From: an uncultured Anaerolineae bacterium | GTDB taxonomy: Bacteria > Chloroflexota > Anaerolineae > Anaerolineales > Villigracilaceae | Direction of reading: 5' to 3' | DNA length: 64,000 nucleotides | Assembly (NCBI GenBank): GCA_937120535.1 | Contig: CAKZJX010000007.1 | Coordinates: 62,001 to 126,000, forward strand | Part shown: positions 13,155 to 63,766 of the stretch, one piece after another | Position numbering within the stretch: the first letter of the stretch is position 1 | How the letters are laid out: each line of letters starts with the position of its first letter | Position numbers and translations under genes: made by a program | The notes under the pieces: generated by a model | What the model saw: the letters and a program-made list of their open reading frames with translations, nothing else | Told to the model about the DNA's origin: nothing | Database searches by the model: none

Positions 13155-13835
13155 TTAGTTCATGCCGTTTGCAATCGCCATGAATTCAGCGCGCACCGTC
13201 GGATTGCTCTTGAAGGCACCGCTAATGTAACTAGTCACAGTTTCAGAGTTTTGATCCTCGACTCCACGACTAATGACACAATAGTGACGTGCTTTGATTG
13301 CAACTGCCACATCATCTGTTTCCAGAATGAATTTCAGAGTTTCCGCAATCTGTTGGGTCAGGCGTTCTTGAACCTGAGGACGGCGGCTGAAATATTCCAC
13401 AATACGGTTCATCTTCGATAGACCCAGAACCTTCTTGTCGGGAATGTATGCTACAGTTGCCAGACCGTCAATTTGCACAAGGTGATGCTCACAATCAGAC
13501 ATGACTCGGATGTTGCGTTCCACGACCATTTCATCATAGTGCATCTTGTTTTCGATTGTCGTACATTTCGGGAAGTTCTCTGGCTTGAGACCCCAAAACT
13601 TCTCGAGGACAAACATCTTAGCCACTCGCTTAGGAGTATCGACTAGACTGTCATCGGTCAAATCAAGACCGAGGAAAATCATAACATCTCGAATGAGAGG
13701 TTCGATGACTGAAATCTTGTCTTGTTCGGAAATTTGCAGTTTGTTTGTGGTAGGCGTATGAATACCCAATGAACGTAGATGATTCTCTACTGCTTGGCCC
13801 AGACTTGGGTCCGTCTTTGTTTTGTTAAATGCCAT
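13155..13835 (-). CDS. folE: GTP cyclohydrolase I
   Basis: Converts GTP to 7,8-dihydroneopterin triphosphate, the first step towards 7-deazaguanines (and folate). The 226-residue length is normal. The zinc-site motif SDCEHHL lies near residue 112, and the second Cys lies in ARHYCVISRGVED near residue 187; both are diagnostic. The N-terminal 40 residues are less conserved. With QueE close by and QueC plus a DpdA-like enzyme at 36-39 kb, it most likely feeds the DNA-modification pathway. No QueD gene is visible in the window, so that step may come from the host or from elsewhere in the genome. Confidence 0.93.
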   Translation of the reverse strand: MAFNKTKTDPSLGQAVENHLRSLGIHTPTTNKLQISEQDKISVIEPLIRDVMIFLGLDLTDDSLVDTPKRVAKMFVLEKFWGLKPENFPKCTTIENKMHYDEMVVERNIRVMSDCEHHLVQIDGLATVAYIPDKKVLGLSKMNRIVEYFSRRPQVQERLTQQIAETLKFILETDDVAVAIKARHYCVISRGVEDQNSETVTSYISGAFKSNPTVRAEFMAIANGMN

Positions 13836-13890: not shown

Positions 13891-14421
13891 CTAGTGAAAA
13901 AAATCTATGAGGTATTTAGCTTGGGCGATTGAATCGTCTAGCGCATTGTGGTGAACGCCTTCATCACGCTCAATGTCCACACCGAAAACATTACACACTG
14001 TCCGTCCATCATAGACATTGTAATATTTCCATGGCATCTTGCCAATCCCTAAAACCTTCATCATTGCTACCTGAGTGATAGGTACATCAAAATGAGGTCC
14101 CCTGGCCCATAGGGGTTCATTGCGCTTCTTGGACAGATACTCGAAGAACATATTGAGGGCTTCTGCTGCAGGTTTTGCGGTTTTCTGAATACCTCTCAAC
14201 GCCGCAGGGTTTTGCTCTCGCCATCATTGAAGTGTATCTTTGTCGTATGTCAAACCATGACGTAGAGAATCTTGTGCATCAATGGTCACATAGAATTCAT
14301 CATAGATCCGCTTTTGGTCGATGTTGAAACGGCACGCGCCAATGCTCAAAATAGCACACCCCGGCTCTTTGCCCAAGGTTTCAATGTCAAACATCACGCC
14401 ATTCAAATGACTAAAACTCAT
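13891..14421 (-). pseudogene. DnaQ-fold 3'-5' exonuclease interrupted by in-frame TGA
   Basis: Residues before the stop contain the DEDD signature MFDIETLG. Residues after it contain HNALDDSIAQAK, the closing HxxxD motif. The two halves are in the same frame, with a single TGA at 14224-14226 between TLQ and WREQNP. Related phage exonucleases usually have two adjacent Trp residues here, so TGA sits exactly where TGG is expected. Either the gene is inactivated by one substitution, or the stop is read through, or the downstream TTG at 14199 restarts translation. TGA is an ordinary stop elsewhere in the window (for example queE). Confidence 0.75.
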
Positions 14422-14427
14422 AGAAAA

Positions 14428-14904
14428 TCAATCCTCGACAACATCGTTCCAACTATACCCATTGAAAACAAGCTCACGCCCGTTGATTGAATCAATGACG
14501 TTCTCAAGGTAATAGTCGTCCCAAGGCTTGCCTGTTTGAATTGTAACGTGGGGTGAATAGAATTCCCGGGAGTGTTTCGCCCCTAGTTTCTTAAGCCTTT
14601 CATGTTCCGCCTGTAAATCGGCGCTTTCCAAGGTAATAACGAGAGAGTCTTCGTTCTTACCGTAGAGCTGGATGTCCTTCATTCTTGCTCTGAAGGTTTT
14701 TGTTTTCGGGTATGATTTTTCAGCGGGCGAGTCGTACTTGCTATACATCACAATGCAATGTAGATCATCATAATTGCATTCTGTTCCCAAGACATCAGCA
14801 ACTGCCGTGATGATGTCTTTGGAACGTTTGTTTGGCACAACGCTCACATAAAGTCCAGATTTTCCCGTCCAACCATTACGAATCAGCTTTTCTACAATCT
14901 GCAT
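14428..14904 (-). CDS. 2H-phosphoesterase, Acb1-like (candidate anti-CBASS)
   Basis: About 158 residues from the ATG at 14904, preceded by GAGG with good spacing; an ATG at 14922 overlapping the queE stop is the alternative. Two histidine motifs are visible, LHCIVMYS (His49) and SPHVTIQ near the C-terminus, the layout of 2H phosphoesterases. T4 gp57B (Acb1) belongs to this fold, has a similar length, and destroys cyclic nucleotide signals of CBASS defence. The first motif reads H-C-I where H-x-T/S is expected, so activity may be altered. RNA 2',3'-cyclic phosphodiesterase is the alternative. Confidence 0.6.
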   Translation of the reverse strand: MQIVEKLIRNGWTGKSGLYVSVVPNKRSKDIITAVADVLGTECNYDDLHCIVMYSKYDSPAEKSYPKTKTFRARMKDIQLYGKNEDSLVITLESADLQAEHERLKKLGAKHSREFYSPHVTIQTGKPWDDYYLENVIDSINGRELVFNGYSWNDVVED

Positions 14905-14918
14905 TGACTTTTCCTCAA

Positions 14919-15803
14919 TCATGAGCCGATAACATTCCCAAATACGTATGTATGGTTTCTAGTTGCGACCATATAGCCACGCTTCATTGCCTCATTCGAG
15001 ATTTTCGCAATGGTAGAACCTTCTTGTTGTTCCTTCGTTGCACCAACAGGCATTACCCAGATGTGCCAATCACTAGGAATTATGGGGATAATCTGCTTCA
15101 TATACATGTCTAACTCTTCCCAACATGCATCAGTGCCGTTCACCACAAACTTCAACCAACCCGAGGCTTCCTCAAAATAATCCTCCAAGAGCTTGACGTT
15201 CACTGCATTACGTTCGCCTGAAACGGAGAACAGCTTAGGCGACACGCTAAGATAGAGGTCTGCGGTTGTTGACATGCTATGGAAGTCTTTGAAAGGCTTT
15301 GTTCCATTCGTCTCGATTGTGATCTGAAGCGGAGACATGTCACGCTCCTTGAATTCATCACAAATCGCCTTCATCTGTTTTTGCCAGAGCATGGGTTCGC
15401 CACCTGTAAAACATAGCTGAACTTTTTGATTGGTTACGGGATGCCTCCAAAAGCCGTTTTTATTATCGGCCTTGAGACCAAGGTTTGCTTCACCCAAAGC
15501 GATCAGTTTGTCCACAAGCTCTCTGACGGACTTCTTGTGAACAAGAGAATCAAACCTCTTAGACCACGAGTATGACGAATCACACCCATGCTCGAAAACA
15601 GGCAGTTCTTCAAGGGTCTTGTACTTGCTGATATCAATTGTCTTGTACGGAAGAACGTAGGTTGATTCGTCCATAGGATTCTTCTGACCGAACCCGTTGC
15701 ATTCTAGGTTGCAGCCGAAGAACCGAACCCAGATTGTGGGCATGCCAGCGAAACCCGCTTCGCCTTGAAAAGATGTGAAGATTTCACTGTACTTGATATC
15801 CAT
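14919..15803 (-). CDS. queE: 7-carboxy-7-deazaguanine synthase (QueE)
   Basis: A radical SAM enzyme that makes 7-carboxy-7-deazaguanine from carboxytetrahydropterin. Diagnostic features are the N-terminal YSEIFTSFQGEAGFAG, the cluster Cys residues in FFGCNLECNGFG and again in GCDSSYSW, and TGGEPMLW. A roughly 40-residue insertion separates the second and third cluster cysteines, giving a 294-residue protein, longer than most bacterial QueE (about 220). It is translationally coupled to the Acb1-like gene by an overlapping ATG/TGA. It works with FolE upstream and QueC at 38 kb. Confidence 0.93.
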   Translation of the reverse strand: MDIKYSEIFTSFQGEAGFAGMPTIWVRFFGCNLECNGFGQKNPMDESTYVLPYKTIDISKYKTLEELPVFEHGCDSSYSWSKRFDSLVHKKSVRELVDKLIALGEANLGLKADNKNGFWRHPVTNQKVQLCFTGGEPMLWQKQMKAICDEFKERDMSPLQITIETNGTKPFKDFHSMSTTADLYLSVSPKLFSVSGERNAVNVKLLEDYFEEASGWLKFVVNGTDACWEELDMYMKQIIPIIPSDWHIWVMPVGATKEQQEGSTIAKISNEAMKRGYMVATRNHTYVFGNVIGS

Positions 15804-17672: not shown

Positions 17673-18599
17673 CTACTCCTCACAAGACCCATTCTTCAAC
17701 CCAGTGGTTGACTCTTGTTCTCCATTATAAACGTGACCCGGGATTAGCTGACGATGTTGAATCCAACCACGGAAGTTACCTGACCACAGTTGCATGTCTG
17801 CGGTCATATGAGTGACTCCCAACTCCTTCCAATGCTCTGGTTCATATGGGGAACAAGTCTTATCCATAGGCTTAGCTTGATGTTCAAAAGGAGAAGCATG
17901 AACAGGTTTTGTCTCCACTAGACGACGATAGATGTCTTGTGCTTTTTCAAGACTTTTGTCTAGCTTACGATACGAAACCTGAGCGCAACACGATGAGGAG
18001 ATAGCCAACGCTTCTTCTAGGCTATGATCTTGTGAATCAGTCCAATGACCTTGCATGTAATACGGGACATGCCAATCATTGTATCCGAGTTCAAATGGGT
18101 CTGAATTAGCTACAGCTTCTAGCATGGCTTCTGCAAGAGCCTTGATTTCAGGTTGTGCGTCTTTGTGAGCACGGAGATAGAAGAAGTTACCAATTTCGGT
18201 TGTCGTCATCACAACCTTGATGATTTGGAACGGTTCTAGGATACGATTGATGATTTGCTTATGTGCGCCTTCTTCATTCATTAAAGCGGCAATTCTGCAG
18301 GCCTCACCCCTTGCTTCATCCCAAAGGGACTTTACTCGAGCAAGATTGGGTTCTTGAAGTTCCTCATTGGCTTGCATGCCTGGTTGGTTCTTGCCCCAAT
18401 GAACCGGCTTTGCTGGATTTGTTTGCACCAGCTCAATCATAGACTTGACGGGAATGGCTCGGCTTGATGCTGCGTTTCGTGAGAACATTCGGTGGGTAAG
18501 GAGCTCCGCGTGAATGAAACGGGGATACTCCAACTCAAAGGTTGTAAGCCGAACACCTGCGGGTGAAATTGAATCTGCGATGATGTTTGCTTTAATCAT
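17673..18599 (-). CDS. thyX: Flavin-dependent thymidylate synthase
   Basis: Makes dTMP from dUMP using FAD. The ThyX signature is seen as LLTHRMFSRNAASSR at residues about 34-48 (an R/H-R-x7-S type motif). The ATG at 18599 has an AAGGAG ribosome site 4 bases upstream; a start at 18617 is less likely. At 308 residues it is longer than the typical 220-250, with a longer C-terminal half. It is preceded by a strongly structured 170-base leader. T4 uses the unrelated ThyA-type enzyme, so this is a replacement. Confidence 0.88.
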   Translation of the reverse strand: MIKANIIADSISPAGVRLTTFELEYPRFIHAELLTHRMFSRNAASSRAIPVKSMIELVQTNPAKPVHWGKNQPGMQANEELQEPNLARVKSLWDEARGEACRIAALMNEEGAHKQIINRILEPFQIIKVVMTTTEIGNFFYLRAHKDAQPEIKALAEAMLEAVANSDPFELGYNDWHVPYYMQGHWTDSQDHSLEEALAISSSCCAQVSYRKLDKSLEKAQDIYRRLVETKPVHASPFEHQAKPMDKTCSPYEPEHWKELGVTHMTADMQLWSGNFRGWIQHRQLIPGHVYNGEQESTTGLKNGSCEE

Positions 18600-18619
18600 A
18601 AAACTCCTTGGTAACAAAA

Positions 18620-24327: not shown

Positions 24328-24402
24328 TGGTGGAGCTGCGGGGAATCGAACCCCGAACTGCGCCTTGCAAGGGCGCTGTGTTCCCAATTATACCACAACC
24401 CC
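24328..24402 (-). tRNA. tRNA-Ala (UGC)
   Basis: A 7-bp acceptor stem GGGGTTG/CAGCTCC with two G-U pairs, a TTCGATT T-loop and anticodon loop CTTGCAA give anticodon UGC (GCA codons). Discriminator A and CCA are encoded. The D arm is compact. Confidence 0.9.
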
Positions 24403-24440
24403 AAAAATCTACATTGTTTTGTATATATTCAAAACGTTTG

Positions 24441-24514
24441 GGATGACCCACGGGATTTGAACCCATACTGCCAAGGTCACAACATAGAGTTCTAATCATT
24501 ACACTAAAGTCACC
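24441..24514 (-). tRNA. tRNA-His (GUG)
   Basis: 74 bases. Acceptor GGTGACT pairs with GGTCATC; anticodon loop TTGTGAC gives GUG. Discriminator is C, as expected for tRNA-His. The anticodon stem has one U-U mismatch. The base at -1 is U rather than the usual encoded G, and CCA is not encoded. Confidence 0.8.
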
Positions 24515-24525
24515 ACTAAGCGTTT

Positions 24526-24602
24526 TGGAACGGTTAGTCAGATTCGAACTGACACTTCGGATTTGGAAGACCCGCGTGCTAGCCGTTAAACACTATAACC
24601 GC
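24526..24602 (-). tRNA. tRNA-Gly (UCC)
   Basis: Acceptor GCGGTTA pairs with TAACCGT; anticodon loop CTTCCAA gives UCC. Discriminator U, as in bacterial tRNA-Gly, followed by encoded CCA. Confidence 0.9.
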
Positions 24603-24615
24603 ATTGAATATAACA

Positions 24616-24695
24616 GGATGGCTCCTACTTTTTGATTAAAGAGAGAAATCGAAACTCTCAACCAGTATATCTTAAAATAACTGCTGTAACCATCC
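24616..24695 (-). other. Degenerate tRNA-like element
   Basis: Ends GGATGGT and GCCATCC form a perfect 7-bp acceptor-like stem (with a terminal T-G). A GAGAG/CTCTC hairpin has a TTTCGATTT loop resembling a T arm but is followed by about 17 extra bases before the acceptor strand. No normal D or anticodon arm can be drawn. It sits in the array spacing of a tRNA, so it is probably a decayed tRNA or a tRNA-mimic. Confidence 0.35.
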
Positions 24696-24706
24696 TTAAA
24701 TTTTTG

Positions 24707-24777
24707 TCTCCGAAGAAGGAATCGAACCTTCGCCTCATGGCCCCAAACCACGCACGCTACCATTACACCACTCGGAG
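24707..24777 (-). tRNA. tRNA-Pro (UGG)
   Basis: 71 bases, acceptor CTCCGAG/TTCGGAG beginning with C as in tRNA-Pro, anticodon stem CGTGG/CCATG, loop TTTGGGG giving UGG. Discriminator A; CCA is not encoded. Confidence 0.9.
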
Positions 24778-24868
24778 TGATTTCCATTTTTCTACGGTGA
24801 CCGCTACCAACTCGCTACTGAGTTGTATCACAGTTAGTTGGATCACTGCATATGATACTTTTAATCAG

Positions 24869-24961
24869 TGGTGCGGTAGGTTGGATTCGAACCAACAGTG
24901 TTTACCACGAGGGACCGGATTTACAGTCCGGGGATGCACACGCCATAGCATCAACTACCGC
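24869..24961 (-). tRNA. tRNA-Tyr (GUA)
   Basis: 93 bases with a long variable arm, as bacterial tRNA-Tyr. Acceptor GCGGTAG/CTACCGC, anticodon stem CCGGA/TCCGG, loop CTGTAAA giving GUA. Discriminator A and CCA encoded. Confidence 0.92.
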
Positions 24962-24973
24962 ATCTTTGTCGTC

Positions 24974-25039
24974 ACCATTTCAAAACACAATATCGGTCCG
25001 GGATTCTAACCCATTTCTAATTTTGTGTTTTGAAATGGT
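24974..25039. repeat. 17-bp perfect inverted repeat overlapping tRNA-Leu 3' end
   Basis: Arms 24974-24990 and 25023-25039 are exact reverse complements around a 32-base loop. The right arm contains the CCA and discriminator of tRNA-Leu. The loop holds a GGGTTAGAATCCC segment like a T arm. It fills the spacer between tRNA-Tyr and tRNA-Leu and may direct processing or be a tRNA-derived relic. Confidence 0.85.
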
Positions 25040-25120
25040 GCCCCTAGCAGGGTTCGAACCTGCACTCCTTTCGGAAGCGGATTTTGAGTCCGCCGAGTCT
25101 ACCAGTTCCTCCATAGGGGC
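25036..25120 (-). tRNA. tRNA-Leu (CAA)
   Basis: 85 bases with a long variable arm. Acceptor GCCCCTA/TAGGGGC, anticodon stem GCGGA/TCCGC, loop CTCAAAA giving CAA (UUG codons). Discriminator A and CCA encoded. First tRNA after the array promoter. Confidence 0.92.
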
Positions 25121-32792: not shown

Positions 32793-34493
32793 ATGTTCTT
32801 AGTAAAAAAGATTCGATTCAAAAATTTCAGGTCATACGGCAATCAATTTACAGAGATAAACCTAATCAAGAGTGGCAGCACTGTTATCACTGCACCTAAT
32901 GGCAGTGGTAAATCTACCATCTTGATGGCGATTGAATTCGCACTGTTCGGCAAAGTGTCCAACGGCATCAACAAAAACGACTTGGTCAATACAATCAACA
33001 AGAAAGATCTTGTCGTAGAGATTGAATGTGAAACGAAGGGCAAAGAGATTCTGATTCGCCGAGGCATCAAGCCTAACATCTTTGAAATCTTCATTGATGG
33101 TAAATTGGTTGACCAAGAGGCGTCTACCAGAGACTATCAAACCCAATTTGAAGAAGAAATCCTGGGGTTCAACATCTCTAGCTTCCGCCAGGTTGTTTCA
33201 ATCAGCGGCGGTTCATACACCCCGTTCCTTTTGCTATCTGCGGGGCAACGTAGAAAGATTGTTGAAGAGCTTTTGAACCTAACGGTGTTCTCTAAGATGT
33301 ATATCATGCATCTTGCATCTATTGCACAAACGAAAGAAAATCTGCAATCAGTAGAAAACGAAATCGAGAAACTACAAGCATCGCTTGCTTCATTGAAGAA
33401 GGGTCTTGAAACCCTATCAGAGCAAGAAGAAGGCTATCGGAAAACGATTGAAGAAAACATTGAAAAAGCCAACTCAAAGATTCAGGCCATCAATGACGAG
33501 ATAAGAGATCAGAATGTTCAAATCGAAAAGCTCCAATCACAAGCAGACTCTTATGAAGTAAAAATCGCCAAGAAGACCAAGCTCCAAGAGTATGGACGGG
33601 ACATGAGGAAGAAGATTCAGAAGATTACAGACTTCATCTCATTCTTCCGAGATAACGATACTTGCCCAACCTGCACCCAACCTATTACTGAAGACTTCAA
33701 GGCGCAAGTCATCGAAGCTAAAGCAAATAAAAGAACAGAACTTCAGAGTAGCCTTGAAAATCTTAATGCGCTACTTCAAAAGACCGAGTCAGAAATCGAA
33801 AAGCTAGATGAAGTCCTAAAGAAGATTCGTTCTCTTGAAAACAACATCCACACAAACACAAAGCGCATCTCTGACCTTCAGGCATACATTTCAGAGCAAC
33901 AGAAGATCTTGGGTAAAAAACATTTCAGCTCGGCAGACCTTACAGCAGAAATTAAGAAAACTTCTCAGGATATTTCTGAATTAAAAGCTCGTCGTCTAGA
34001 ACTTCTTGAAGAAAAACAATATAATGAGGTCATCAGTGCAATCATCAAGGACAACGGCATCAAGTCCAAGATCATTGCGCAATATGTGCCTCGAATGAAC
34101 CAAGAGATCAACAAGTTCCTAGAGCTATTGGATTTGGGTATTTCATTCGAGATCAATGAGAATTTTGAAGAACGTATTCTTTCACGTTTCAAAGACGAAC
34201 TTTCATACATGAGTTTCTCTGCGGGCGAACGTGCGAGAATTGACATTGCAATTCTTTTCACTTGGAGGGAGTTAGCTAAATTAAAGAACTCGCTTAATTG
34301 CAATCTGCTCTTCCTAGACGAGATTTTTGATGCAGTATTGGACGACCAGGGACTAGAATCATTCATAAATCTGTTAAAATATCATCTAAGTGATACGAAC
34401 GTTTTTCTAATTAGTCATCGACCCGAGGTTGTGGACAAATTTGAGAGCAATCTCCGCATTGTCAAATCTGCAAACTTTTCAAGGATAGAATAA
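32793..34493 (+). CDS. 46: Recombination nuclease ATPase subunit (T4 gp46-like, Rad50 family)
   Basis: Rad50-type ATPase partner of gp47. 566 residues (T4 gp46: 560). Walker A TAPNGSGKST is near residue 35, long coiled coils flank a zinc hook DTCPTCTQPI near the middle, and the signature FSAGERARIDIA is followed by Walker B NLLFLDEIFD. It begins 3 bases after gp47 and overlaps the ClpP-like gene by one base. Confidence 0.95.
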   Translation: MFLVKKIRFKNFRSYGNQFTEINLIKSGSTVITAPNGSGKSTILMAIEFALFGKVSNGINKNDLVNTINKKDLVVEIECETKGKEILIRRGIKPNIFEIFIDGKLVDQEASTRDYQTQFEEEILGFNISSFRQVVSISGGSYTPFLLLSAGQRRKIVEELLNLTVFSKMYIMHLASIAQTKENLQSVENEIEKLQASLASLKKGLETLSEQEEGYRKTIEENIEKANSKIQAINDEIRDQNVQIEKLQSQADSYEVKIAKKTKLQEYGRDMRKKIQKITDFISFFRDNDTCPTCTQPITEDFKAQVIEAKANKRTELQSSLENLNALLQKTESEIEKLDEVLKKIRSLENNIHTNTKRISDLQAYISEQQKILGKKHFSSADLTAEIKKTSQDISELKARRLELLEEKQYNEVISAIIKDNGIKSKIIAQYVPRMNQEINKFLELLDLGISFEINENFEERILSRFKDELSYMSFSAGERARIDIAILFTWRELAKLKNSLNCNLLFLDEIFDAVLDDQGLESFINLLKYHLSDTNVFLISHRPEVVDKFESNLRIVKSANFSRIE

Positions 34494-35230
34494 TGATTTC
34501 CAAACAACCAGAATATATTCTCCGAACCATGTGGGATAGAATCAAAACAACAAATGAAAATCTAGATCAAGATGAAGAAACTCTTGATGAAGTTGTTTCT
34601 GAAGATGAGCAGACATCGGTTTCGGTGTTTGACAAGTTTGCAATCATCCAACTGAATGGCCCTGTATGCGCTGAGACGGTCAATCCGATTGTGGATTTCA
34701 TTGTCGGGGCAAATTTGTCAAGTGACAAGAAACTGGATTTGAACGTCATTAACCTTTTCATTGACACCGAGGGCGGCGACCTCCATTCGGCTATGAAATT
34801 GATTGATGCCATTCGTATGAGTGAAATTCCTATTCGCACCATCGGATGGGGTAAGGTGGCATCCGCTGGTCTAATCATTTTCATGACTGGCGCAGAACGT
34901 TTCATATCCGAGAACTGTTCAATCCTTTCGCACAATGCAACCTTCAATGCGGCTCGTTACTCTGTTCGGGTGAATGACCTTTCACACCAACAAGAGTTCA
35001 AGCTCATCATTGACCGAATCATGCGTGTCTACAAAGAATGCACCGGCAAGGATGAGAAGTATATCAAGAAGCACCTGTTGCGTGATAATGACGTCTACAT
35101 GTCCGCTGCCGATGCAATCGAACATGGCCTCGGCGACGGGTTCCTTCCAAGAGGCATGTCTTGGCTAAAAAGTTTGGTTAGACAGAGAATGACAGTCGAA
35201 GAAGTCCTTGACCCCGAGCTAAATACCTGA
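34493..35230 (+). CDS. ClpP-like serine protease
   Basis: A 245-residue ClpP-fold protein. A full catalytic triad is visible: Ser124 in GKVASAGLIIF, His147 in ILSHNATF and Asp200 in LRDNDVYMSAADAIEHGLGD. The first 45 residues are an extra acidic extension. It lies between gp46 and the gp45 clamp, a location unlike any T4 gene. It may be a prohead-unrelated cytoplasmic protease that turns over a phage or host regulator, alone or with host ClpA/ClpX. Cleavage of structural proteins is a less likely alternative because gp21 is present. Confidence 0.85.
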   Translation: MISKQPEYILRTMWDRIKTTNENLDQDEETLDEVVSEDEQTSVSVFDKFAIIQLNGPVCAETVNPIVDFIVGANLSSDKKLDLNVINLFIDTEGGDLHSAMKLIDAIRMSEIPIRTIGWGKVASAGLIIFMTGAERFISENCSILSHNATFNAARYSVRVNDLSHQQEFKLIIDRIMRVYKECTGKDEKYIKKHLLRDNDVYMSAADAIEHGLGDGFLPRGMSWLKSLVRQRMTVEEVLDPELNT

Positions 35231-35961: not shown

Positions 35962-37287
35962 ATGCTACACAATAATAGAATGAACTATGTGGCGTCGGGT
36001 CTTCAATTTGCCAAGTTCCTCTACAAGGATGCTCTTAAGAGCAAGGAAATTGTTGACCTGACAGGCCAGTGGCTAAAGCGTTTGGATAACGTCAACGGCC
36101 ATCGCTTCAGTGTGCTGTTCAATGCATTCACTGAGAAGAAGATGGGCCCACAGATTCAAGAGACCATCAAGCCTTATGTCTATGATGTTCATTCGGACTC
36201 CGGTGGCCTTCAGATGATTTCTCGTGGCCTTGCTGTGACGCCTGAGATCAAAAAAGAAATCTATGAAACCCAAGGTAGGTATTCAGATGTGGCTATGTCT
36301 TTTGACGAAATCCCAGTCTATACCTTGGTGCAGAAGTCTGAGCTGAAAGATGCGAGCAATAAAGTATTTGATAGGTCTCGTCTTGAGCCTTGCGCTAAGG
36401 CAACCGCTCGAAACATTACCGAGCAGATCCAATCATTCCTTGATAACAAGTCATCGACCCGCCCATTGGCGATCATTCAAGGGAACTGTCTAGAGACTGC
36501 TATGATTTGGTCGGATATCCTGTTTAAGGAGATTCCACAAAACATGCATGAAGTGATTGGAGGTATCGCTATTGGTTCACCTGCTCTAGGCGTCGGTGAA
36601 TTGGAAGAAGTGAAGAAGGCGTTCTGGTTCACCCAGATTCCCTTTGACATTAAAGAGAAACATCTTCATATGTTGGGTGTGGGTGCAATGAAGCGATTTG
36701 TGCCTACGTTGGTGTTTGTGAAATCGGGTTTGTTCAAGGATACCTTAGTGTCCTACGATTCAACAACCCATACCAGCATGAACATCTACGGTCGCTATTA
36801 CTACGGCAAGAAGCCAGGCCGTCAATATCAGATCGTCTACAATCGTGAATACACTCCAGCGTATGATGAGGTGTATGAAGACATTGTGTCTTTGCTACCA
36901 GAGCTAACCCAATGGTGTAAGAACGGATATGAATTCTTCACATTAATGAACGCCAAGCCAAAAGAATATACCAAGACGAACCCTTCACGGATTCCGCTAA
37001 TCATGTCAACCGTGGCGCATGCAATTTCATGTATTTACAACTTCACCAAGCACGTTGAAGATGCACTTCATGATGACGAAATCCTATATGAGATGGTTGA
37101 TGAAGAAGTAACCGAGCCGAAGTCTAAGATCAAGTATATTGACAAGACCAAGCGGAACGTCTATAATGAGCTAGGTAAAGTAAAAACCCTTGAGGATTAC
37201 AAATATTGGGAATCCCATCTTGGCCGTTTCCTCAATAGCAAGCCTTCTCGTAACGGTCATACAACCTTGGATGATTTTTTCGAATGA
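35962..37287 (+). CDS. DpdA-like 7-deazaguanine DNA transglycosylase (TGT fold)
   Basis: A 441-residue member of the tRNA-guanine transglycosylase superfamily. YDVHSDSGGLQMI (residues about 73-85) parallels the TGT DSGGFQ motif, VAMSFDEIP follows, GGIAIGSPALGVGE resembles the TGT glycine loop, and SYDSTTHTSMNIYGRYY near 265 has the candidate nucleophilic Asp. With FolE, QueE and QueC in the same phage, it most likely swaps guanine in DNA for a 7-deazaguanine base. Protects DNA from host restriction in known cases. Overlaps the HAD gene by four bases. A tRNA substrate is the alternative. Confidence 0.85.
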   Translation: MLHNNRMNYVASGLQFAKFLYKDALKSKEIVDLTGQWLKRLDNVNGHRFSVLFNAFTEKKMGPQIQETIKPYVYDVHSDSGGLQMISRGLAVTPEIKKEIYETQGRYSDVAMSFDEIPVYTLVQKSELKDASNKVFDRSRLEPCAKATARNITEQIQSFLDNKSSTRPLAIIQGNCLETAMIWSDILFKEIPQNMHEVIGGIAIGSPALGVGELEEVKKAFWFTQIPFDIKEKHLHMLGVGAMKRFVPTLVFVKSGLFKDTLVSYDSTTHTSMNIYGRYYYGKKPGRQYQIVYNREYTPAYDEVYEDIVSLLPELTQWCKNGYEFFTLMNAKPKEYTKTNPSRIPLIMSTVAHAISCIYNFTKHVEDALHDDEILYEMVDEEVTEPKSKIKYIDKTKRNVYNELGKVKTLEDYKYWESHLGRFLNSKPSRNGHTTLDDFFE

Positions 37288-37688
37288 GCATCGGATATGA
37301 TCTTGACGGAGTTCTAATCTCCGATTTGTACTGGCCTGATGGCATGTCTCTTGAAGATTTTCTTAAGATGCGTGCTTCAGAGCCGTATGCCAATTTTGTT
37401 CCAAAAGGAAGCTATGTCATTGTGACTGGTCGAAATTCATCAGATAGACCCTACACTGAAGCATGGATTAGCAAAAACCTTGCAAGCAATCCCCCGTATC
37501 GTTTGTTTCATGATTGTCCAGATCATAGGCAAGGCGCAGAGTACAAGGCAAGTGTAATTAACCAGAACGGCATCAGGATTTTCATTGAATCAGATGCAAA
37601 GCAGGTTGAGTATTTGAAAAAGCATTGCCCATATTGTCGTGTTTATCATTTCGGGAGCTTTCTAAGTGAAACGTTTTATAACCTATGA
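37284..37688 (+). CDS. HAD-superfamily hydrolase-like protein
   Basis: A 134-residue protein with the HAD motif GYDLDGVLI (Asp6, Asp8) at the extreme N-terminus, VIVTGRNSS as motif II, and FIESDAKQVEYL as a motif IV-like acidic site. Short HADs of this type dephosphorylate nucleotides or small metabolites. It is coupled to the transglycosylase by ATGA overlap and to the phosphoribosyltransferase by a 23-base overlap, so it probably serves the modified-base pathway. Substrate unknown. Confidence 0.75.
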   Translation: MSIGYDLDGVLISDLYWPDGMSLEDFLKMRASEPYANFVPKGSYVIVTGRNSSDRPYTEAWISKNLASNPPYRLFHDCPDHRQGAEYKASVINQNGIRIFIESDAKQVEYLKKHCPYCRVYHFGSFLSETFYNL

Positions 37689-38148
37689 GGAAATGACTGC
37701 TCTGTTAGATGAGCAGATTCCCAAGATTGAAGCATACGGGTTTGATGAAATCGTTGCTGTGGTTCGTGGTGGTTTGACCGCTGCGCACTACATTGCAAAA
37801 CAACTTCGCTTACCTGTGGGTGTTTACTACCCATCAAATGATGCATATTCTACACCTCGTTTGATCCTAGCCAAGAAGAAGGCGGGCAAACTGTTGTTTG
37901 TGGAGGACCTTGTTGCGCAGGGTCGTACTCATGCCGAGCTATATAAGTTCATGAAGGGCTTTCCAGAAGTCGATTGGCATTTCATGCCAGTGCTAGTGGA
38001 TGGGAAGTATGAGAAGAACTTCCTTATGCAGTGTTTGAAAACAGACGACTGGATTGTGTTCCCCTACGAAAAGTATGATAAAATGCAGGAAGGTGACAGG
38101 GGTCTTTTCCGGATGAATTCAGATGTTTATGGGGTAGCAAATGGGTAA
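37666..38148 (+). CDS. Phosphoribosyltransferase-like protein
   Basis: A 160-residue type I PRTase fold. VAVVRGGLTAAHYIAKQL is the substrate-side loop and LLFVEDLVAQGRTHAEL the PRPP motif (VED in place of the usual VDD; QGRT for TGxT). Starts at GTG inside the HAD gene and overlaps queC by eight bases. Could salvage a purine or 7-deazapurine base, or cleave a nucleotide to free base for the transglycosylase. This is inference from context. Confidence 0.75.
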   Translation: MKRFITYEEMTALLDEQIPKIEAYGFDEIVAVVRGGLTAAHYIAKQLRLPVGVYYPSNDAYSTPRLILAKKKAGKLLFVEDLVAQGRTHAELYKFMKGFPEVDWHFMPVLVDGKYEKNFLMQCLKTDDWIVFPYEKYDKMQEGDRGLFRMNSDVYGVANG

Positions 38149-39061
38149 GAAGATTGTTGTTTTGCACAGTGGTGGTCTTGACTCTACAGTGATGTGGCGT
38201 CTAGCGAAAGAGGACATTCGCAATGAGGTGATCGCCGTATATTTTGACATTGGACACGACTACGCTTGGAAAGAAAAGGCGCAATTGCCGCCGGGCGCAC
38301 ACATCCATGATATGACTTGGTTCAAAGCCGAAGGCAAAGGCAAGGCGGGCAACGCCATGAATAACATCTTCATTCCTGGTAGGAACATGATGTTTGCTAC
38401 AATCGCTGCATGTAAGTATCTGCCTGACGAGATTTGGATGGGCGCGCTCATGGGTGAAATCCATGACCAAGCAACCGACAAGAACCTAGAATATCTCCAT
38501 CGACAGAACGATATTCTTAGTTATGTTCTATCGCCCTTCGGAAAAGTGAAGGTGGTGTTTCCTTTCGTAGAACGCCAGTGGGGTAAGCTGCAAGTAACAA
38601 GGTGGGCATGCCAAAACGGTATGCAACAAGAGATTCTCGCATCGAGTTCATGCATGAGCGGTGAAGCAGGAAATTGTGGTCGTTGCGGCGTTTGTTTGCG
38701 CCGTGCAGGCATTTTCCCTCAATTAAACATGGAAGAAAGCTACAACGTTGATCCTTGGACAGCCCCCGAGAACCGCAAGCTGATCCACGATTTGATTGTT
38801 GCTGAAATCAATCAAGACGATTCCCATTATGACCGCTTCCGTAGGGAAGAGATCATCCCCACTCTAATCCGAAACCACAGCGGAAAATCTTTGCAGGAAA
38901 TTTTGGAGCTTTATACGGATGGGGCTACTCAAGCTAAGGAAGAAGTTCTACAAGAAACTCCTCAAGAATCCGGGCCTAATCAAACGGAAATGAACCAAGA
39001 CCAGACCTCGACAAGCACCCACAATCCAGACGCACCTCCTCAAGTCACCCATGTTGTTTAA
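38141..39061 (+). CDS. queC: 7-cyano-7-deazaguanine synthase (QueC)
   Basis: Converts carboxydeazaguanine to preQ0 with ATP and ammonia. The PP-loop VLHSGGLDSTVMW is at the N-terminus, PGRNMMFATIAA is conserved, and a zinc site of four Cys (SSCMSGEAGNCGRCGVCLRR) lies around residues 170-185. Residues about 235-306 form an extra Gln/Glu/Thr-rich tail absent from bacterial QueC (about 230). It overlaps the glycosyltransferase gene by 11 bases. Confidence 0.94.
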   Translation: MGKKIVVLHSGGLDSTVMWRLAKEDIRNEVIAVYFDIGHDYAWKEKAQLPPGAHIHDMTWFKAEGKGKAGNAMNNIFIPGRNMMFATIAACKYLPDEIWMGALMGEIHDQATDKNLEYLHRQNDILSYVLSPFGKVKVVFPFVERQWGKLQVTRWACQNGMQQEILASSSCMSGEAGNCGRCGVCLRRAGIFPQLNMEESYNVDPWTAPENRKLIHDLIVAEINQDDSHYDRFRREEIIPTLIRNHSGKSLQEILELYTDGATQAKEEVLQETPQESGPNQTEMNQDQTSTSTHNPDAPPQVTHVV

Positions 39062-39911
39062 TACCGCTTACATCATCTCATACCTGCCTAATGATTCTCT
39101 CAAGGCCAGGCGCCTTGAGATTCATAACAAACAGGTTGACTATTGGCTGGCTAAGGGTTTGAACGTCTTGGTGTATGCCCAAGGATATCAACAAGACGAC
39201 TTCCGAAAGGACGTCCAGTATATCGTCAATACCCGAGGCGAAACCGATAGGCCCGGGCCCGCTCGTAACGTCTTGCTCCGTGCTTTTTATGATTCGGATG
39301 AAGACTTTTGTTTGTTGATGGACAACGACATTGTTCTCTATGAGGGTGAGAAGTATTGTGATAGTGACAACCTTGTTCAAATCTTAAAAGACATTCCTCT
39401 TGAAAGCCTAGAAGGTGTAGATGTATTTGAGCCTTTGAATCCTACACAAACACCTTTCAGTGCTTTCTATGCCGAAAAGAAGGATGTGCTAGCTAACAAC
39501 CTAATCTTCAAGCGTCGTCCGAACATCTCAGGATGTTGTTTGTTCATTAGAAATTTCAAGAAGTTTGGTGAAGAGCCATTCTTCTATAATGATTGGTTTG
39601 ATGAAAAGACAGGTAAGGTTATCATGGGAGAAGATGTTGCCTTCGGTCTTAACCTCACGAAAAAGGGCAAGGGTGTCTATTCTTTGATGAATGCCGTCCG
39701 AAAGGACATGGGGTGGACGTCGAGCTCTTGGTGCAAGAGCCCTGAAATCAGAAAGCAATCATTTGAAACTCTGAAGGCGATCCTACCGACTTTGGGAGTG
39801 GGAACCAAGAACGGGAACCTAGATTGGGCAGGTTTCGCCGATCGCTACAAGATCCCACGACAAGTTCTAGCCCCCAAGAAAAAATCCGCAAGCATCCTAG
39901 ACATGATGTGA
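39051..39911 (+). CDS. GT-A-fold glycosyltransferase
   Basis: A 286-residue protein. GPARNVLLRAFYDSDEDFCL leads into LLMDNDIVLYEG near residues 88-97, a DxD-type metal/nucleotide-sugar site. GCCLFIRNFKKFGEEPFFY and GEDVAFGLNLTKKGKGVYS resemble the acceptor side of GT2-like enzymes. No signal peptide, so it acts in the cytoplasm. Overlap with queC suggests it may glycosylate the deazaguanine base, DNA, or a protein of the pathway. No closer family assignment can be made. Confidence 0.75.
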   Translation: MLFNTAYIISYLPNDSLKARRLEIHNKQVDYWLAKGLNVLVYAQGYQQDDFRKDVQYIVNTRGETDRPGPARNVLLRAFYDSDEDFCLLMDNDIVLYEGEKYCDSDNLVQILKDIPLESLEGVDVFEPLNPTQTPFSAFYAEKKDVLANNLIFKRRPNISGCCLFIRNFKKFGEEPFFYNDWFDEKTGKVIMGEDVAFGLNLTKKGKGVYSLMNAVRKDMGWTSSSWCKSPEIRKQSFETLKAILPTLGVGTKNGNLDWAGFADRYKIPRQVLAPKKKSASILDMM

Positions 39912-40324: not shown

Positions 40325-40474
40325 ATGCTGAAAGACTTCATTATGTGGATGCAAGAACCCGGCAAATGGAATGACGTCATGGTTATTTGCGGTGTGGTTA
40401 TTATTGTTTCTTTGATCGGCATAATTGTCTGCGAAAAGATTGAAAAGCGTAAAGCTTGGAAAATGGGCCGATAG
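40325..40474 (+). CDS. 49-residue membrane protein
   Basis: MLKDFIMWMQEPGKWNDVMV is followed by a hydrophobic segment (VVIIVSLIGIIVCEK) and a basic tail (KRKAWKMGR). GAGGACAG precedes the ATG as a ribosome site. The stop codon lies inside the 5' end of the tRNA-Met gene, so mRNA and tRNA share a transcript. One membrane segment, role unknown. Confidence 0.65.
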   Translation: MLKDFIMWMQEPGKWNDVMVICGVVIIVSLIGIIVCEKIEKRKAWKMGR

Positions 40475-40541
40475 CTTAGTGGCCTAAAGCAGCGGCCTCA
40501 TAAGCCGTTGATCCTGGGTTCAAATCCCAGTCGGCCCACCA
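40465..40541 (+). tRNA. tRNA-Met (CAU) or Ile2 type
   Basis: 77 bases. Acceptor GGGCCGA/TCGGCCC, normal D arm (TAGCTTAGTGGCCTAAAGC region), anticodon stem GCGGC/GCCGT, loop CTCATAA giving CAU. Discriminator A, CCA encoded. The CAU anticodon could also serve AUA Ile if lysidine-modified. It is the only complete tRNA here outside the main array on the plus strand. Confidence 0.92.
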
Positions 40542-42159: not shown

Positions 42160-43062
42160 ATGATGCGAGCAATTGTGACCGTGGGGGTTTCGGCCTCGGG
42201 TAAGTCGACTTGGGCGTCGGACTTTATCAAAGCTGAGGCCTCCAAGGGCGTTATTTGGCAGCGCATTGAACGAGATTGTATCCGCAGGGGTATCTTGATT
42301 GAAAAGGGTATCGCTGCGGAACTGGAATGGGACAAATGGAATTGGAAATGGGAAAAGGAAGTGAGTGAGCGCGCAGACAAAATACTGGAAGCCGCTGCTC
42401 AATCACGCGCCAACGTTATTATCTCTGACACCAACCTGAACAAAGAACGACGGAAGAGTCTGATTCAGAAGCTCAAGGAATTTGGCTACACCGTAGACGT
42501 TCGACCCTTTCCTATCTCGTTTGAGGAAGCTGTTAAACGTGACGCCAAGCGCAAGAACGGTGTGGGCGTTTCTGTTCTGGCATCTCAGTTTGAGCAATGG
42601 AACAAGCAATTCGTCACTCAGTATGAAGGCACTAAGGGTGCTCCCAAGGCCATCATCGTTGATATTGACGGCACGTTGGCACAAATGAATCGTGACCGTG
42701 GCCCGTTTGAATGGGACAAGGTTGAACAAGACAAGCTGGATGAAGAAGTGGCAGCAATCGTCAAAGCTCTGGAAAGCTCTGGAGAATGGAAGATTGTTGT
42801 TCTGTCGGGTCGCGATGGCGTCTGCCGTCCTCAAATCGAACGGTGGCTGGCACGGCACGAAATTCGGTACAGCGACTTCTTCATGCGTGCTGAAGGCGAT
42901 ATGCGTAAGGATTCGGTCATCAAATCAGAAATCTTCTGGTGTGATGTTGCTCCGAAATATGACGTTAAAATGGTCATTGATGGCCGTCCTCAGGTCACCC
43001 GTATGTGGCGCAGCATTGGTCTGAAAGTGCTTCAGGTGGGTAACCCTTACATTGAATTTTGA
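42160..43062 (+). CDS. pnk: Polynucleotide 5'-kinase/3'-phosphatase (T4 Pnk-like)
   Basis: Repairs nucleic acid ends, typically tRNAs cut by host anticodon nucleases. 300 residues (T4 Pnk: 301). N-terminal kinase with Walker A TVGVSASGKSTW; C-terminal phosphatase with IIVDIDGTLA and VVLSGRDGVCRP (HAD motifs). No RNA ligase partner is visible in the window. The tRNA genes in this phage fit a repair role. Confidence 0.95.
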   Translation: MMRAIVTVGVSASGKSTWASDFIKAEASKGVIWQRIERDCIRRGILIEKGIAAELEWDKWNWKWEKEVSERADKILEAAAQSRANVIISDTNLNKERRKSLIQKLKEFGYTVDVRPFPISFEEAVKRDAKRKNGVGVSVLASQFEQWNKQFVTQYEGTKGAPKAIIVDIDGTLAQMNRDRGPFEWDKVEQDKLDEEVAAIVKALESSGEWKIVVLSGRDGVCRPQIERWLARHEIRYSDFFMRAEGDMRKDSVIKSEIFWCDVAPKYDVKMVIDGRPQVTRMWRSIGLKVLQVGNPYIEF

Positions 43063-46554: not shown

Positions 46555-47984
46555 ATGGATAAAGATACCCTTGTTAACTTAAGTGTGCCTTCAATTGCAA
46601 AAAGGCCAGATGCTCAAAAGGCTCTGGCCTTTTTTACAGATTACCTACCAGAAGGTTCTTCGCTATCAGAGCGACATTACTGTTTGAAGAATTCACTTAA
46701 AGCTAGGCCAAAATGTGAGGTTTGTGGATCCGAGGTAAATTTCCAGCTAGGTAAATACAATCGTTTCTGCTCTAGGAAATGCAGCATTGCTTTTTACAAG
46801 AATGATGCTTCGATAAAGAAAAAGATTTCAGAATCAAATAAGAGATCAGCCGAGCAGGCTAAAGAAAAAAGAAAAGAAACCAATCTTAAAAGATACGGCG
46901 TCGAGTGTACTTTTACTACGATTAACAATGACCGAAAAGCTAAGGGTCTAGTTTCTCCGTCTGTCTCCAAGAATGCGGATGTTTCTTCATTGCTGAGCGA
47001 ATCCGTTCTGAGGGAAATGCATCATGAGAAGAAGCTAAATTTGGTTGAGATTGCAAACGAACTGGGTGTTACCGAAAGGGCGATCTGGAATAGATTGAAG
47101 ATGTTCTCAATAGAACAAATGTACTGGGGTGGTTCTTCTCTTGAGACTAGAATTTGCGACTTTCTAGAAGGCCTTGACGTGCAGTTCAAGAGGAATTACA
47201 AACCCGATTTTCTACAAGGTAAAGAGATCGACATCTGGATTCCCGAATCTAAACTAGGAATAGAGATAAACGGCCTCTATTGGCATAGCGAACATAAAAG
47301 ACCCAAAACATATTATCATGATAAAGCCAAGACATGTCTTAACAACGGTGTCAGATTGATTCAATTTTGGGAGCATGAAATCATAGAAAAGGAAAAATTG
47401 GTCTTTTCTATGATTAGGAATGCTGTTGGTAGGTCAGAAATAAAATTGAGTGCCAGAGACTGCATTGTTGTGGAGTCAACCAAAGCCGACAGAGAAACCA
47501 TTAGAACATTCCTAGACGAAAACCATCTAAAGGGCTATCATCATTATTCAAGGGCGTTTCTTTTAAAGAACAAAGATGGCGAGATTCTTTCAACCATGAC
47601 CTTTTCAAAGCCGAGATTTTCGAAGAGTTCTGGGCTAGAATTGATTAGGTTTTGTTCAAAAATGAACACCACAATTCGAGGCGGGCCAGTAAATTGTGGA
47701 AACATTGTACATCTGTTCTTGAGTCTGATATAATGACCTATGCGGATTTGAGGTACTCTACAGGAAGCATTTACCGAGATGTGTTTGGTATGAAATTTGA
47801 AGGCGTAACATCACCTGGATTCTTTTGGGCAAATAGTAAACTAGAAACCAGGAATCGACTAACACTGATCAATCAGATCGTAAGAAATGAAGGTGAAACC
47901 CAGGAGGCCGCTGCCAGGAGACTCGGGTGGTTTAAGGTTTTTGATTGCGGTAATCTGAAATTTTCCTCTAAGCGAGAAAGCTAG
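46555..47984 (+). pseudogene. VSR-like (EDxHD) homing endonuclease, frameshifted
   Basis: Free-standing homing endonuclease between gp32 and RNase H. An N-terminal zinc motif CEVCGSEVNF...CSRKCS is followed by a helix-turn-helix, then a VSR-type nuclease core (YKPDFLQGKEIDIWIPESKL, IEINGLYWHSEHK, IQFWEHEI) as in the I-Bth0305I family. The frame breaks after CSKMNTTIRGG; the expected ASKLWKHCTSVLESDIMTYA continues in the next frame to 47984. A missing G near 47690 explains it. Start 12 bases after the gp32 stop, without a ribosome site. Confidence 0.8.
46599..46635 (+). terminator. Rho-independent terminator inside endonuclease ORF
   Basis: Arms 46599-46610 (AAAAAGGCCAGA) and 46623-46634 are complementary around a 12-base loop and end in a run of six T. 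It lies 56 bases after the gp32 stop and acts as the gp32 terminator, yet is translated as SIAKRPDAQKALAFF in the endonuclease frame. Confidence 0.85.
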
Positions 47985-63310: not shown

Positions 63311-63766
63311 ATGGCGAGAGAACCCCAACAAGGTAGATACGTATTAAGGAACCCCCAGAAATATGAAGGTGACCCCACAAACGTCATTTTTCGTTCATCC
63401 TGGGAAAAGAGATTCATGATTTTCCTAGACAATCATGACTCCATTATATCATGGAGTTCTGAAGAAGTGGTGGTGCCTTACTTTTGGGAACTAGATGGGA
63501 AGATGCATCGTTACTATCCTGATTTCATAGTGACGATGAAAACCAAACAAGGTGTTGTGAAAATGATGATTGAGATCAAACCTTATTCCCAGACAATAGC
63601 ACCTACAAAAAAAGGTCGAAAGAAAGAGAAAACCTTCTTGACGGAAGTCGAGACGTACACTAAGAACGTTGCAAAGTGGAAAGCTGCTGAACTGTATTGC
63701 AAGGAGAGGAATTGGTTGTTCCGAATCATTACGGAGAAGGAATTGTTCAAGGACAAGGTATGGTAA
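63311..63766 (+). CDS. 4: Head completion nuclease (T4 gp4-like)
   Basis: 151 residues (T4 gp4/50: 150). VLRNPQKYEGDPTNVIFRSS and WEKRFMIFLDNHDSIISWSS, with YYPDFIVTMK and MIEIKP forming a TnsA/PD-(D/E)XK-like core. Acts in head completion after packaging. Rightward, opposite to gp48, behind an exact late promoter. Confidence 0.9.
   Translation: MAREPQQGRYVLRNPQKYEGDPTNVIFRSSWEKRFMIFLDNHDSIISWSSEEVVVPYFWELDGKMHRYYPDFIVTMKTKQGVVKMMIEIKPYSQTIAPTKKGRKKEKTFLTEVETYTKNVAKWKAAELYCKERNWLFRIITEKELFKDKVW

Follow-up and report, generated by a model that had tools for sequence, protein, structure and literature searches.

Results and discussion

Five overlapping genes on a probable phage contig

A 64,000-nt stretch of contig CAKZJX010000007.1, assigned to an uncultured Anaerolineae bacterium, holds a block of five overlapping genes that most likely serves to swap guanines in a phage's own DNA for a look-alike base, which may also carry a sugar. 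The stretch is called the window here, and coordinates follow its numbering unless marked C7, the contig itself, which is one of 140 contigs in its bin. C7 is 128,635 bases long, and given the 183-base direct repeat at its termini, it probably represents a phage genome, complete and circular, that was binned with the bacterium. The genes around the block are T4-like, including those for a late sigma factor, an SbcD-like nuclease subunit, a sliding clamp, and baseplate and tail lysozyme proteins.

The five genes, all on the plus strand and overlapping by 4, 23, 8, and 11 bases as described in an initial annotation of the sequence, are predicted to encode a DpdA2-type DNA transglycosylase, a small HAD phosphatase, a purine phosphoribosyltransferase (PRTase), a divergent QueC (QueC*), and a GT-A-like glycosyltransferase (GT) (Table 1). 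Their order recurs in a metagenome contig, L002 (L-numbers are locus labels), with 64-80% protein identity. Between the two contigs, synonymous difference is near saturation (pS 0.77-0.88) and nonsynonymous difference is low (pN 0.13-0.26) in all five genes; every gene of the block is under strong purifying selection, and because the order is kept in L002 with such selection on each gene, it goes beyond chance. Two further metagenome contigs carry DpdA2, QueC, and GT proteins 100% identical to those of the window.

The conversion of GTP to 7-carboxy-7-deazaguanine (CDG) by FolE, QueD, and QueE is established chemistry. FolE and a QueE-like enzyme are found at 13-16 kb of the window, where the initial annotation had placed them, and QueD lies on the same contig; the route to CDG is therefore complete on the phage. 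Relatives of the exonuclease-like open reading frame (ORF) between QueE and FolE hold the same position in many other DpdA2 loci of our locus map.

Table 1. Predicted features of the window and of contig C7
Feature	Coordinates	Strand	Size	Matches and position
DpdA2-type DNA-guanine transglycosylase (gene 1)	35962..37287	+	441 aa	phrog_10773 1e-97, nt-1 match, TGT fold
Small HAD phosphatase (gene 2)	37284..37688	+	134 aa	phrog_415 1.8e-6
Purine PRTase, xanthine/guanine type (gene 3)	37666..38148	+	160 aa, GTG start	phrog_8995 4.5e-9
Divergent QueC (QueC*, gene 4)	38141..39061	+	306 aa	PF06508 3.7e-14
GT-A-like glycosyltransferase (gene 5)	39051..39911	+	286 aa	tblastn to Phosso and context
FolE, GTP cyclohydrolase I	13155..13835	-		PF01227 1.7e-60, phrog_2197 7.8e-75
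QueE-like radical SAM enzyme (CDG synthase)	14919..15803	-		phrog_2076 1.4e-49
Exonuclease-like ORF	13891..14199	-		phrog_255 2.3e-18; between QueE and FolE
QueD (outside window)	C7:46165-47052	-		on C7, about 52 kb away from DpdA2
Acb1-like anti-CBASS gene	14428-14922	-		PF23474 3.4e-15; between QueE and the exonuclease-FolE pair
ThyX-type thymidylate synthase	17673-18617	-		PF02511 1e-13; PHROGs name thymidylate synthase only
Six-tRNA array	24328-25120	-		
ClpP-like protease	34493-35230	+		PF00574 1.5e-22; between recombination genes and sliding clamp
tRNA-Met, single	40465-40541	+		just downstream of the five-gene block
Polynucleotide kinase, full-length	42160-43062	+		phrog_505 6.4e-88
Homing-endonuclease-like gene	46555-47733	+		phrog_3339 5.5e-64
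TnsA-like endonuclease N-terminal domain	63311-63766	+		PF08722 1.1e-21

A DpdA2-type transglycosylase

The DpdA-type insertion enzyme proposed in the initial annotation is borne out as a member of DpdA2, with action on DNA as the predicted function. Gene 1 has no Pfam match, and its PHROGs family has no assigned function. It aligns with DpdA2 of Vibrio phage nt-1 (35.0% identity, residues 7-272, E 2e-40), the reference protein of PMC6884629. An AlphaFold2 model built from 27 sequences has a pLDDT of 89.5, and all 11 of its PDB matches at E<=0.001 are tRNA-guanine transglycosylases (TGT) or DpdA, the latter including 7ui4 (E 4.3e-6). The best structural match is the Z. mobilis TGT 4dy1 (Z 21.4, root-mean-square deviation 3.7, 304 residues). 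Residues D79, D115, and D266, in the motifs DSGGLQ, FDE, and SYDST, are invariant in 27 sequences and would correspond to the TGT catalytic residues. The four cysteines of the protein do not form the CxCxxC arrangement, the zinc motif of TGT.

Among DpdA2 phages with published DNA modification are nt-1 (PMC6884629) and 6E351A, in which 15% of the deoxyguanosine is a 295-Da base consistent with dPreQ1 (PMC12028318). The TGT family PF01702 misses phage DpdA, matching none of seven records, one of them Motura, whose TGT is annotated. A comparison of DpdA2 with the transglycosylase of locus L100 gave a probability of 47% (E 1.9e-4).

Glycosyltransferase genes often accompany DpdA2

A profile of seven DpdA2 proteins found 390 relatives in virus contigs, and the best 80 of these 390 were used; leaving out L001 and L003, whose protein is 100% identical to that of the window, and adding C7 and five phage records gave 84 loci. 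Since this set is biased toward the query and made up of related loci, counts for 27 clusters are given beside the locus counts. Neighbor genes were mapped by clustering and iterated profiles, with a proximity threshold of 4 kb. The window GT family is called GT-A, and two GT4-type families are called GTB1 and GTB2; members of the latter two match the GT4-type Glycos_transf_1 (X1 8e-12, L068 1.7e-4, L103 7.8e-5).

The common layout reads QueE, (PRTase), FolE, exonuclease, (second GT), DpdA2, f3, GTB1, (epimerase/cytidylyltransferase), QueD. Within the threshold, FolE is found in 78 of the 84 loci (26 of the 27 clusters), QueE in 63 (23), QueD in 60 (22), an epimerase in 22 (2), and QueC in 6 (5). 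GTB1 is present in 72 loci (22 clusters), GTB2 in 20 (2), and GT-A in 7 (2), so that some GT accompanies DpdA2 in 74 loci and 23 clusters. Where the flanks are full (27 loci), all 27 GTB1 matches lie within 4 kb of DpdA2 and on its strand. Ten loci have no GT within this distance: L021, L027, L035, L051, and L056 end shortly past DpdA2, L061 does not and still has none, and L007, L008, L009, and L032 are QueC loci. The association of GT genes with DpdA2 is strong; the chemistry that it points to is predicted.

The largest DpdA2 cluster (25 loci) shows an exchange at one operon position, immediately upstream of DpdA2, which is held by GTB2 in 19 loci and by GT-A in five (L084, L085, L090, L093, and L094, at 0.8-2.6 kb; L080 is cut off there). 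The GT-A arrangement is seen again in L112, L113, and L116. Two unrelated GT folds swap at one operon position, and we take this as an argument that what is conserved there is sugar transfer as such. The earlier proposal that the GT belongs to the deazaguanine block gains comparative evidence from these counts and from the exchange, and its sugar on the base stays a prediction. The HAD, PRTase, and GT had been described as not standard for such pathways; they are absent from the accessible text of the pathway accounts consulted, and relatives of each recur beside DpdA or que genes in other phages.

The protein f3 (phrog_17812, about 130 aa, no assigned function; for example L078 11275-11667) adjoins DpdA2 in 73 of the 84 loci and in 22 clusters. 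It may be related to QueD, a comparison giving a suggestive probability of 22% (E 9.4e-4). QueC and f3 never occur together in one of the 84 loci. In whole records, QueC-family matches were found in 4 of 22 (6E35.1a, Ps15, the record of L048, and X1, the last below cut-off); the exclusion is local and not absolute, since the record of L048 and X1 carry f3. The complete BUCT-ZZ01 genome has no QueC-family match. In many DpdA2 phages the pathway thus appears to go no further than CDG or a product of f3; one proposed enzyme, DpdL, is a CDG decarboxylase. Sequence searches of the PDB with GT-A, DpdA2, and f3 as queries returned nothing or chance matches.

Searches that start from the glycosyltransferases

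Starting from GT-A, all 11 virus loci found, from about three lineages, have DpdA2 or FolE/QueE adjoining. Two phage records contain GT-A, that of Phosso with QueE and that of DSL-LC06 without. The Phosso GT-A was considered as a contradiction and rejected as such, an f3-GTB1-FolE-QueE group lying about 70 kb away. In this 469-kb jumbo phage, f3, GTB1, FolE, and QueE occupy one stretch (L121 8618-14272), and neither PF01702 nor the DpdA2 search recognized a transglycosylase.

Starting from GTB1, 20 phage records match, and the six inspected (BUCT-ZZ01, X1, Phosso, PAC2, ACP17, and PhiXhv-12) all have deazaguanine genes within 9 kb. In PhiXhv-12 this gene is Gat-QueC, and QueE is distant; a Gat-QueC fusion, a PIG-L deacetylase (3.5e-7), and GTB1 (GT4) stand there side by side (L124 6663-9897). 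A PIG-L-like deacetylase named by eye in X1 was not used, as Pfam gave no family at 0.1. The PAC2 row begins with a protein of 540 aa in which TGT-like motifs were seen by eye and Pfam found no match, followed by GTB1, f3, an epimerase-like protein, PRTase, and QueE; the PA5oct group, to which PAC2 belongs, is credited with a deazaguanine system (PMC7824862). Locus L100 combines a PF01702 transglycosylase (1.4e-8) and QueC* with a HAD-like ORF, a PRTase recognized by profile (9e-6), and a GT-like protein whose Pfam match is at 0.015. A comparison of GT-A with the L100 GT gave no match, and a scan of the genome contigs for GT-A relatives found none. Parts of these clusters are held by cultured phages, namely BUCT-ZZ01, X1, ACP17, PA5oct-type phages, and Menderavirus; the Synechococcus phage BUCT-ZZ01 has a PRTase and two GT4 genes.

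A QueC without its canonical tyrosines

Thirteen aligned proteins were compared residue by residue with E. coli QueC as reference, in which alanine mutants of Y35, Y131, and Y189 are inactive (PMC13329287). The window protein carries I, A, and M in their place and retains R99. It is one of nine QueC* proteins (C7, L002, Ps15, L100, and L103-L107, with L105 and L106 nearly identical), all of which lack Y35 and Y131 and eight of which lack Y189, retained in L107. All nine have TDKN in place of the E. coli PDCR, and they retain SGGLDS, PGRN, and the cysteines, the first spacing among the four zinc cysteines of the window protein being 7 and not 8. The three tyrosines are kept in QueC of E. coli, 6E35.1a, and pf16; L032 keeps only Y189. 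Because all three are missing from the window QueC, preQ0 is doubtful as its product, and a canonical preQ0 end product was rejected on these residues. The nearly complete preQ0 pathway seen in the initial annotation is therefore upheld as far as CDG, and its last step is in doubt.

Two QueC-fold enzymes, Cap9 and QatC, reportedly attach CDG to the amines of proteins (PMC13329287), which makes a CDG-amide role a natural guess for QueC*, a probable CDG-activating, amide-forming enzyme. Compared by description, Cap9 and QatC share with QueC* the QueC fold, SGGxDS, and the use other than preQ0 synthesis that is proposed for it; they differ in being defense proteins with a protein partner, whereas QueC* sits with DpdA genes.

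In six of the nine QueC* loci (Ps15 and L103-L107) the HAD gene lies directly upstream of QueC*; the PRTase separates the two in C7 and L002, and the HAD-like ORF of L100 was recognized by motif and not by Pfam. A myo-inositol-1-phosphate synthase gene lies upstream of the HAD in Ps15 and L103-L107, with a methyltransferase in between in L107; the Ps15 paper names it as one of the genes presumed to have come from bacteria (PMC9025141). The module of myo-inositol-1-phosphate synthase, HAD, and QueC* occurs in L103-L107 and L007, and four of these six loci have DpdA2 in the stretch. Among the QueC* loci, DpdA2 is present in the stretches of C7, L002, Ps15, L103, L105, and L106, L100 has another transglycosylase, and none was found in the short records of L104 and L107.

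Phosphatase and phosphoribosyltransferase

Six residues of gene 2 (D6, D8, T48, K88, E102, and D104, comprising the DxD, T/S, and K positions and the acidic residues of motif IV) are invariant in seven homologues, which identifies it by motif as a small HAD phosphatase whose substrate is a matter of prediction. The Ps15 protein UMO77289 (L007 6866-7237), annotated as a phosphoribosyltransferase in one record and as a polynucleotide kinase in the RefSeq copy, was considered as part of a PRTase-QueC pair and rejected, the protein being a HAD (phrog_415 1.8e-15). The polynucleotide kinase of the window has a phosphatase half distantly related to the HAD of the block (phrog_415).

A profile of 15 relatives places gene 3 with the xanthine/guanine-type purine PRTases, as purine PRTases rank first among its matches (best 9.1e-24; E. 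coli xanthine-guanine phosphoribosyltransferase 1.1e-14). It keeps the phosphoribosyl pyrophosphate loop and the C-terminal W-I-V-F-P segment. On its own, the window protein falls below the PF00156 cut-off, and tblastn against phages gave no match. PRTase genes lie within 4 kb of DpdA2 in 12 of the 84 loci and 8 of the 27 clusters. In phage phiST, which has QueE, a related purine PRTase adjoins a protein like deoxynucleotide monophosphate kinase (L125 7866-8910, PF21448 3.2e-5).

A proposed hypermodification pathway

We propose, with a probability of roughly one half, that C7 encodes a DNA modification pathway whose end product is a glycosylated 7-deazaguanine, in which QueC* makes a CDG amide and the PRTase recycles guanine. 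The five-gene block would be its downstream half. FolE, QueD, and QueE would supply CDG from GTP, and QueC* would activate the CDG carboxyl with ATP to form an amide (ADG or that of another amine), not preQ0. The HAD, which travels with QueC*, would probably dephosphorylate either the partner or the product. DpdA2, for whose family base exchange into DNA is established, would then swap some DNA guanines for the 7-deazaguanine, and the GT-A enzyme would glycosylate it, either ahead of insertion or once it is in the DNA. Since each exchange frees one guanine, and this fits the class of the PRTase, that enzyme may turn the expelled guanine into GMP, refeeding GTP to FolE. The resulting base in virion DNA would block host nucleases. 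The families, gene order, co-occurrence, TGT fold, and loss of canonical QueC residues are observed; every chemical step beyond CDG is our prediction, as are the sugar, the point where it is attached, and the roles assigned to the HAD and PRTase.

Gene 5 itself is tentatively identified as a GT-A-like enzyme from weak direct matches and operon context. It aligns by tblastn with an annotated glycosyltransferase of phage Phosso (30.3%, E 2e-23), D91-N92-D93 and E194-D195 are invariant in seven homologues, and its best PHROG glycosyltransferase match has an E of 0.043.

Several results weigh against the proposed pathway. The window GT has no Pfam match at 0.1; structure prediction, one of the checks suggested in the initial annotation, gave a poor model (pLDDT 56.3), whose best Foldseek match, a mannosyltransferase at 1.2e-3, misses the threshold of 0.001. 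Exchange of GT-A at the DpdA2 slot is confined to one cluster and so was probably a single replacement event. The GT-A relative of DSL-LC06 stands among other glycosyltransferases, and no QueE or TGT was found there. The QueC-bearing DpdA2 loci outside the window lineage (Ps15, pf16, 6E35.1a, and L032) have no GT within 4 kb, the HAD lies that close to DpdA2 in just 3 of 84 loci and 2 of 27 clusters, and the record of L048, of the f3 type, has its QueC-family matches elsewhere in the record. Among 70 cultured-phage records with DpdA2 (48 from Vibrio phages and 16 from Stenotrophomonas phages), GTB1 is found in four (X1, BUCT-ZZ01, and ACP17 twice) and GT-A in none. Given this count, and given that 6E351A, with DpdA2 and QueF, makes a plain dPreQ1-like base (PMC12028318), DpdA2 needs no GT; the GT marks a subset, which is large among uncultivated phages.

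Alternative explanations

The most serious alternative, possible though on the whole unlikely, is that C7 is an ordinary 7-deazaguanine phage, in which QueC makes preQ0 or ADG for insertion by DpdA2 and the operon also carries the HAD, PRTase, and GT as accessory genes for metabolism or surface modification. The measured products of DpdA2 phages, dPreQ0, dADG, and dPreQ1 (PMC6884629, PMC12028318), are of this kind, GT-A also occurs among the other GT genes of DSL-LC06, and the direct GT evidence for the window protein is weak. Such an explanation must contend with the swapping of unrelated GT folds in one slot adjoining DpdA2, with a GTB1 that leads to deazaguanine genes in six of six phages inspected, and with a QueC lacking its key residues.

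A more speculative version of the glycosylated base, which we regard as rather improbable, takes the CDG carboxyl as a handle: QueC* would join CDG to a phosphorylated amine carrier, such as an amino-sugar or inositol-linked glucosamine, the HAD would dephosphorylate it, glycosyltransferases would build the sugar, and DpdA enzymes would insert the product into DNA. The phage DNA would then hold, with the same low probability, a mycothiol-like sugar joined through an amide bond at position 7 of the deazaguanine, a sugar-decorated purine. Relatives hold, in varied combinations, an inositol-phosphate synthase, GT4, a phosphatase, a PIG-L deacetylase, and an amide-forming ATPase, a set that matches the logic of mycothiol synthesis.

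There is little probability that the modification arises at the nucleotide level, with the PRTase and HAD making a deazaguanine nucleotide or nucleoside that becomes a modified dGTP for the polymerase. Free purine bases are PRTase substrates, the phiST relative adjoins a kinase-like protein, and a modified-dGTP route is mentioned for Campylobacter phages (PMC6884629); however, this phage encodes DpdA2 for base exchange, its block has no dedicated kinase, and a PRTase is missing near most DpdA2 loci.

It is similarly improbable, at a slightly lower grade, that the GT merely shares the operon and acts on another DNA base, for example a 5-hydroxymethyl pyrimidine. GT-A relatives show a very weak similarity, under cut-off, to the TET-associated glycosyltransferase family (Phosso 0.026, L002 0.12), and Phosso carries PF00303; a TET/JBP search was uninformative, its control matching nowhere. 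No PF00303 enzyme was found in C7 or the bin, the L085 and L100 records, which are possibly fragments, likewise showed none, and the thymidylate synthase of the window is ThyX-type, so that a hydroxymethyl-pyrimidine acceptor is less likely, and is rejected as far as the absence of PF00303 from C7 and the bin goes.

Modification of tRNA rather than DNA, which the TGT fold of gene 1, the tRNA-His(gtg) and tRNA-Tyr(gta) genes of the window (queuosine-type substrates), and the discussion of tRNA queuosine by the Ps15 authors (PMC9025141) might suggest, is very improbable for a member of DpdA2, a group in whose phages the DNA contains deazaguanines, and for a gene that adjoins sliding clamp and recombination genes.

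Relation to known systems

The proposed glycosylated deazaguanine pathway shares with the nt-1-type pathway (PMC6884629, PMC12028318) DpdA2, FolE, QueD, QueE, a QueC-family gene, and base exchange in DNA. The latter differs in having a canonical QueC (6E35.1a, PF06508 3e-54) and in ending in preQ0, preQ1, or G+; in 6E35.1a, the surroundings of DpdA2 showed neither a glycosyltransferase nor a HAD or PRTase. The que cluster of Menderavirus (Stenotrophomonas phages Ps15, IME-SM1, and others; PMC9025141) likewise brings together HAD, QueC*, DpdA2, FolE, and QueE, but has a myo-inositol-1-phosphate synthase, and neither a PRTase nor a glycosyltransferase was found in the stretch. Hypermodification of carboxymethylcytosine (PMC12783734) also uses a DNA-base carboxyl as a handle for amide formation, with another base and other enzymes.

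Besides the genes discussed above, C7 has an Acb1-like anti-CBASS gene, a ClpP-like protease gene, a six-tRNA array, a lone tRNA-Met gene, a homing-endonuclease-like gene, and a TnsA-like domain (Table 1).

Biological significance

In T4-like phages, hydroxymethylcytosine is glucosylated. The likeness to the window is that a phage glycosyltransferase puts a sugar on a DNA base, as is predicted here; the T4-like acceptor is a pyrimidine made by a hydroxymethylase, unlike the acceptor proposed for C7. To our knowledge, sugars on DNA are known only from modified pyrimidines. No report of glycosylated 7-deazaguanine DNA was found in the open-licence literature searched, including that on Stenotrophomonas phages, PA5oct phages, and CDG in phages, and 'glycosyl' has 0 occurrences in the accessible text of PMC6884629.

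If the proposal is true, phages would have a purine-based way of coating their DNA with sugar, encoded next to DpdA2 and, with less certainty, next to transglycosylases of other types, and a change would be expected in how they withstand restriction, Type IV enzymes, and CRISPR. The proposal gives testable roles to divergent QueC, HAD, and PRTase genes that are filed in records as queuosine, kinase, or hypothetical genes, and, if chemistry confirms it, these phages would use a new kind of DNA disguise.

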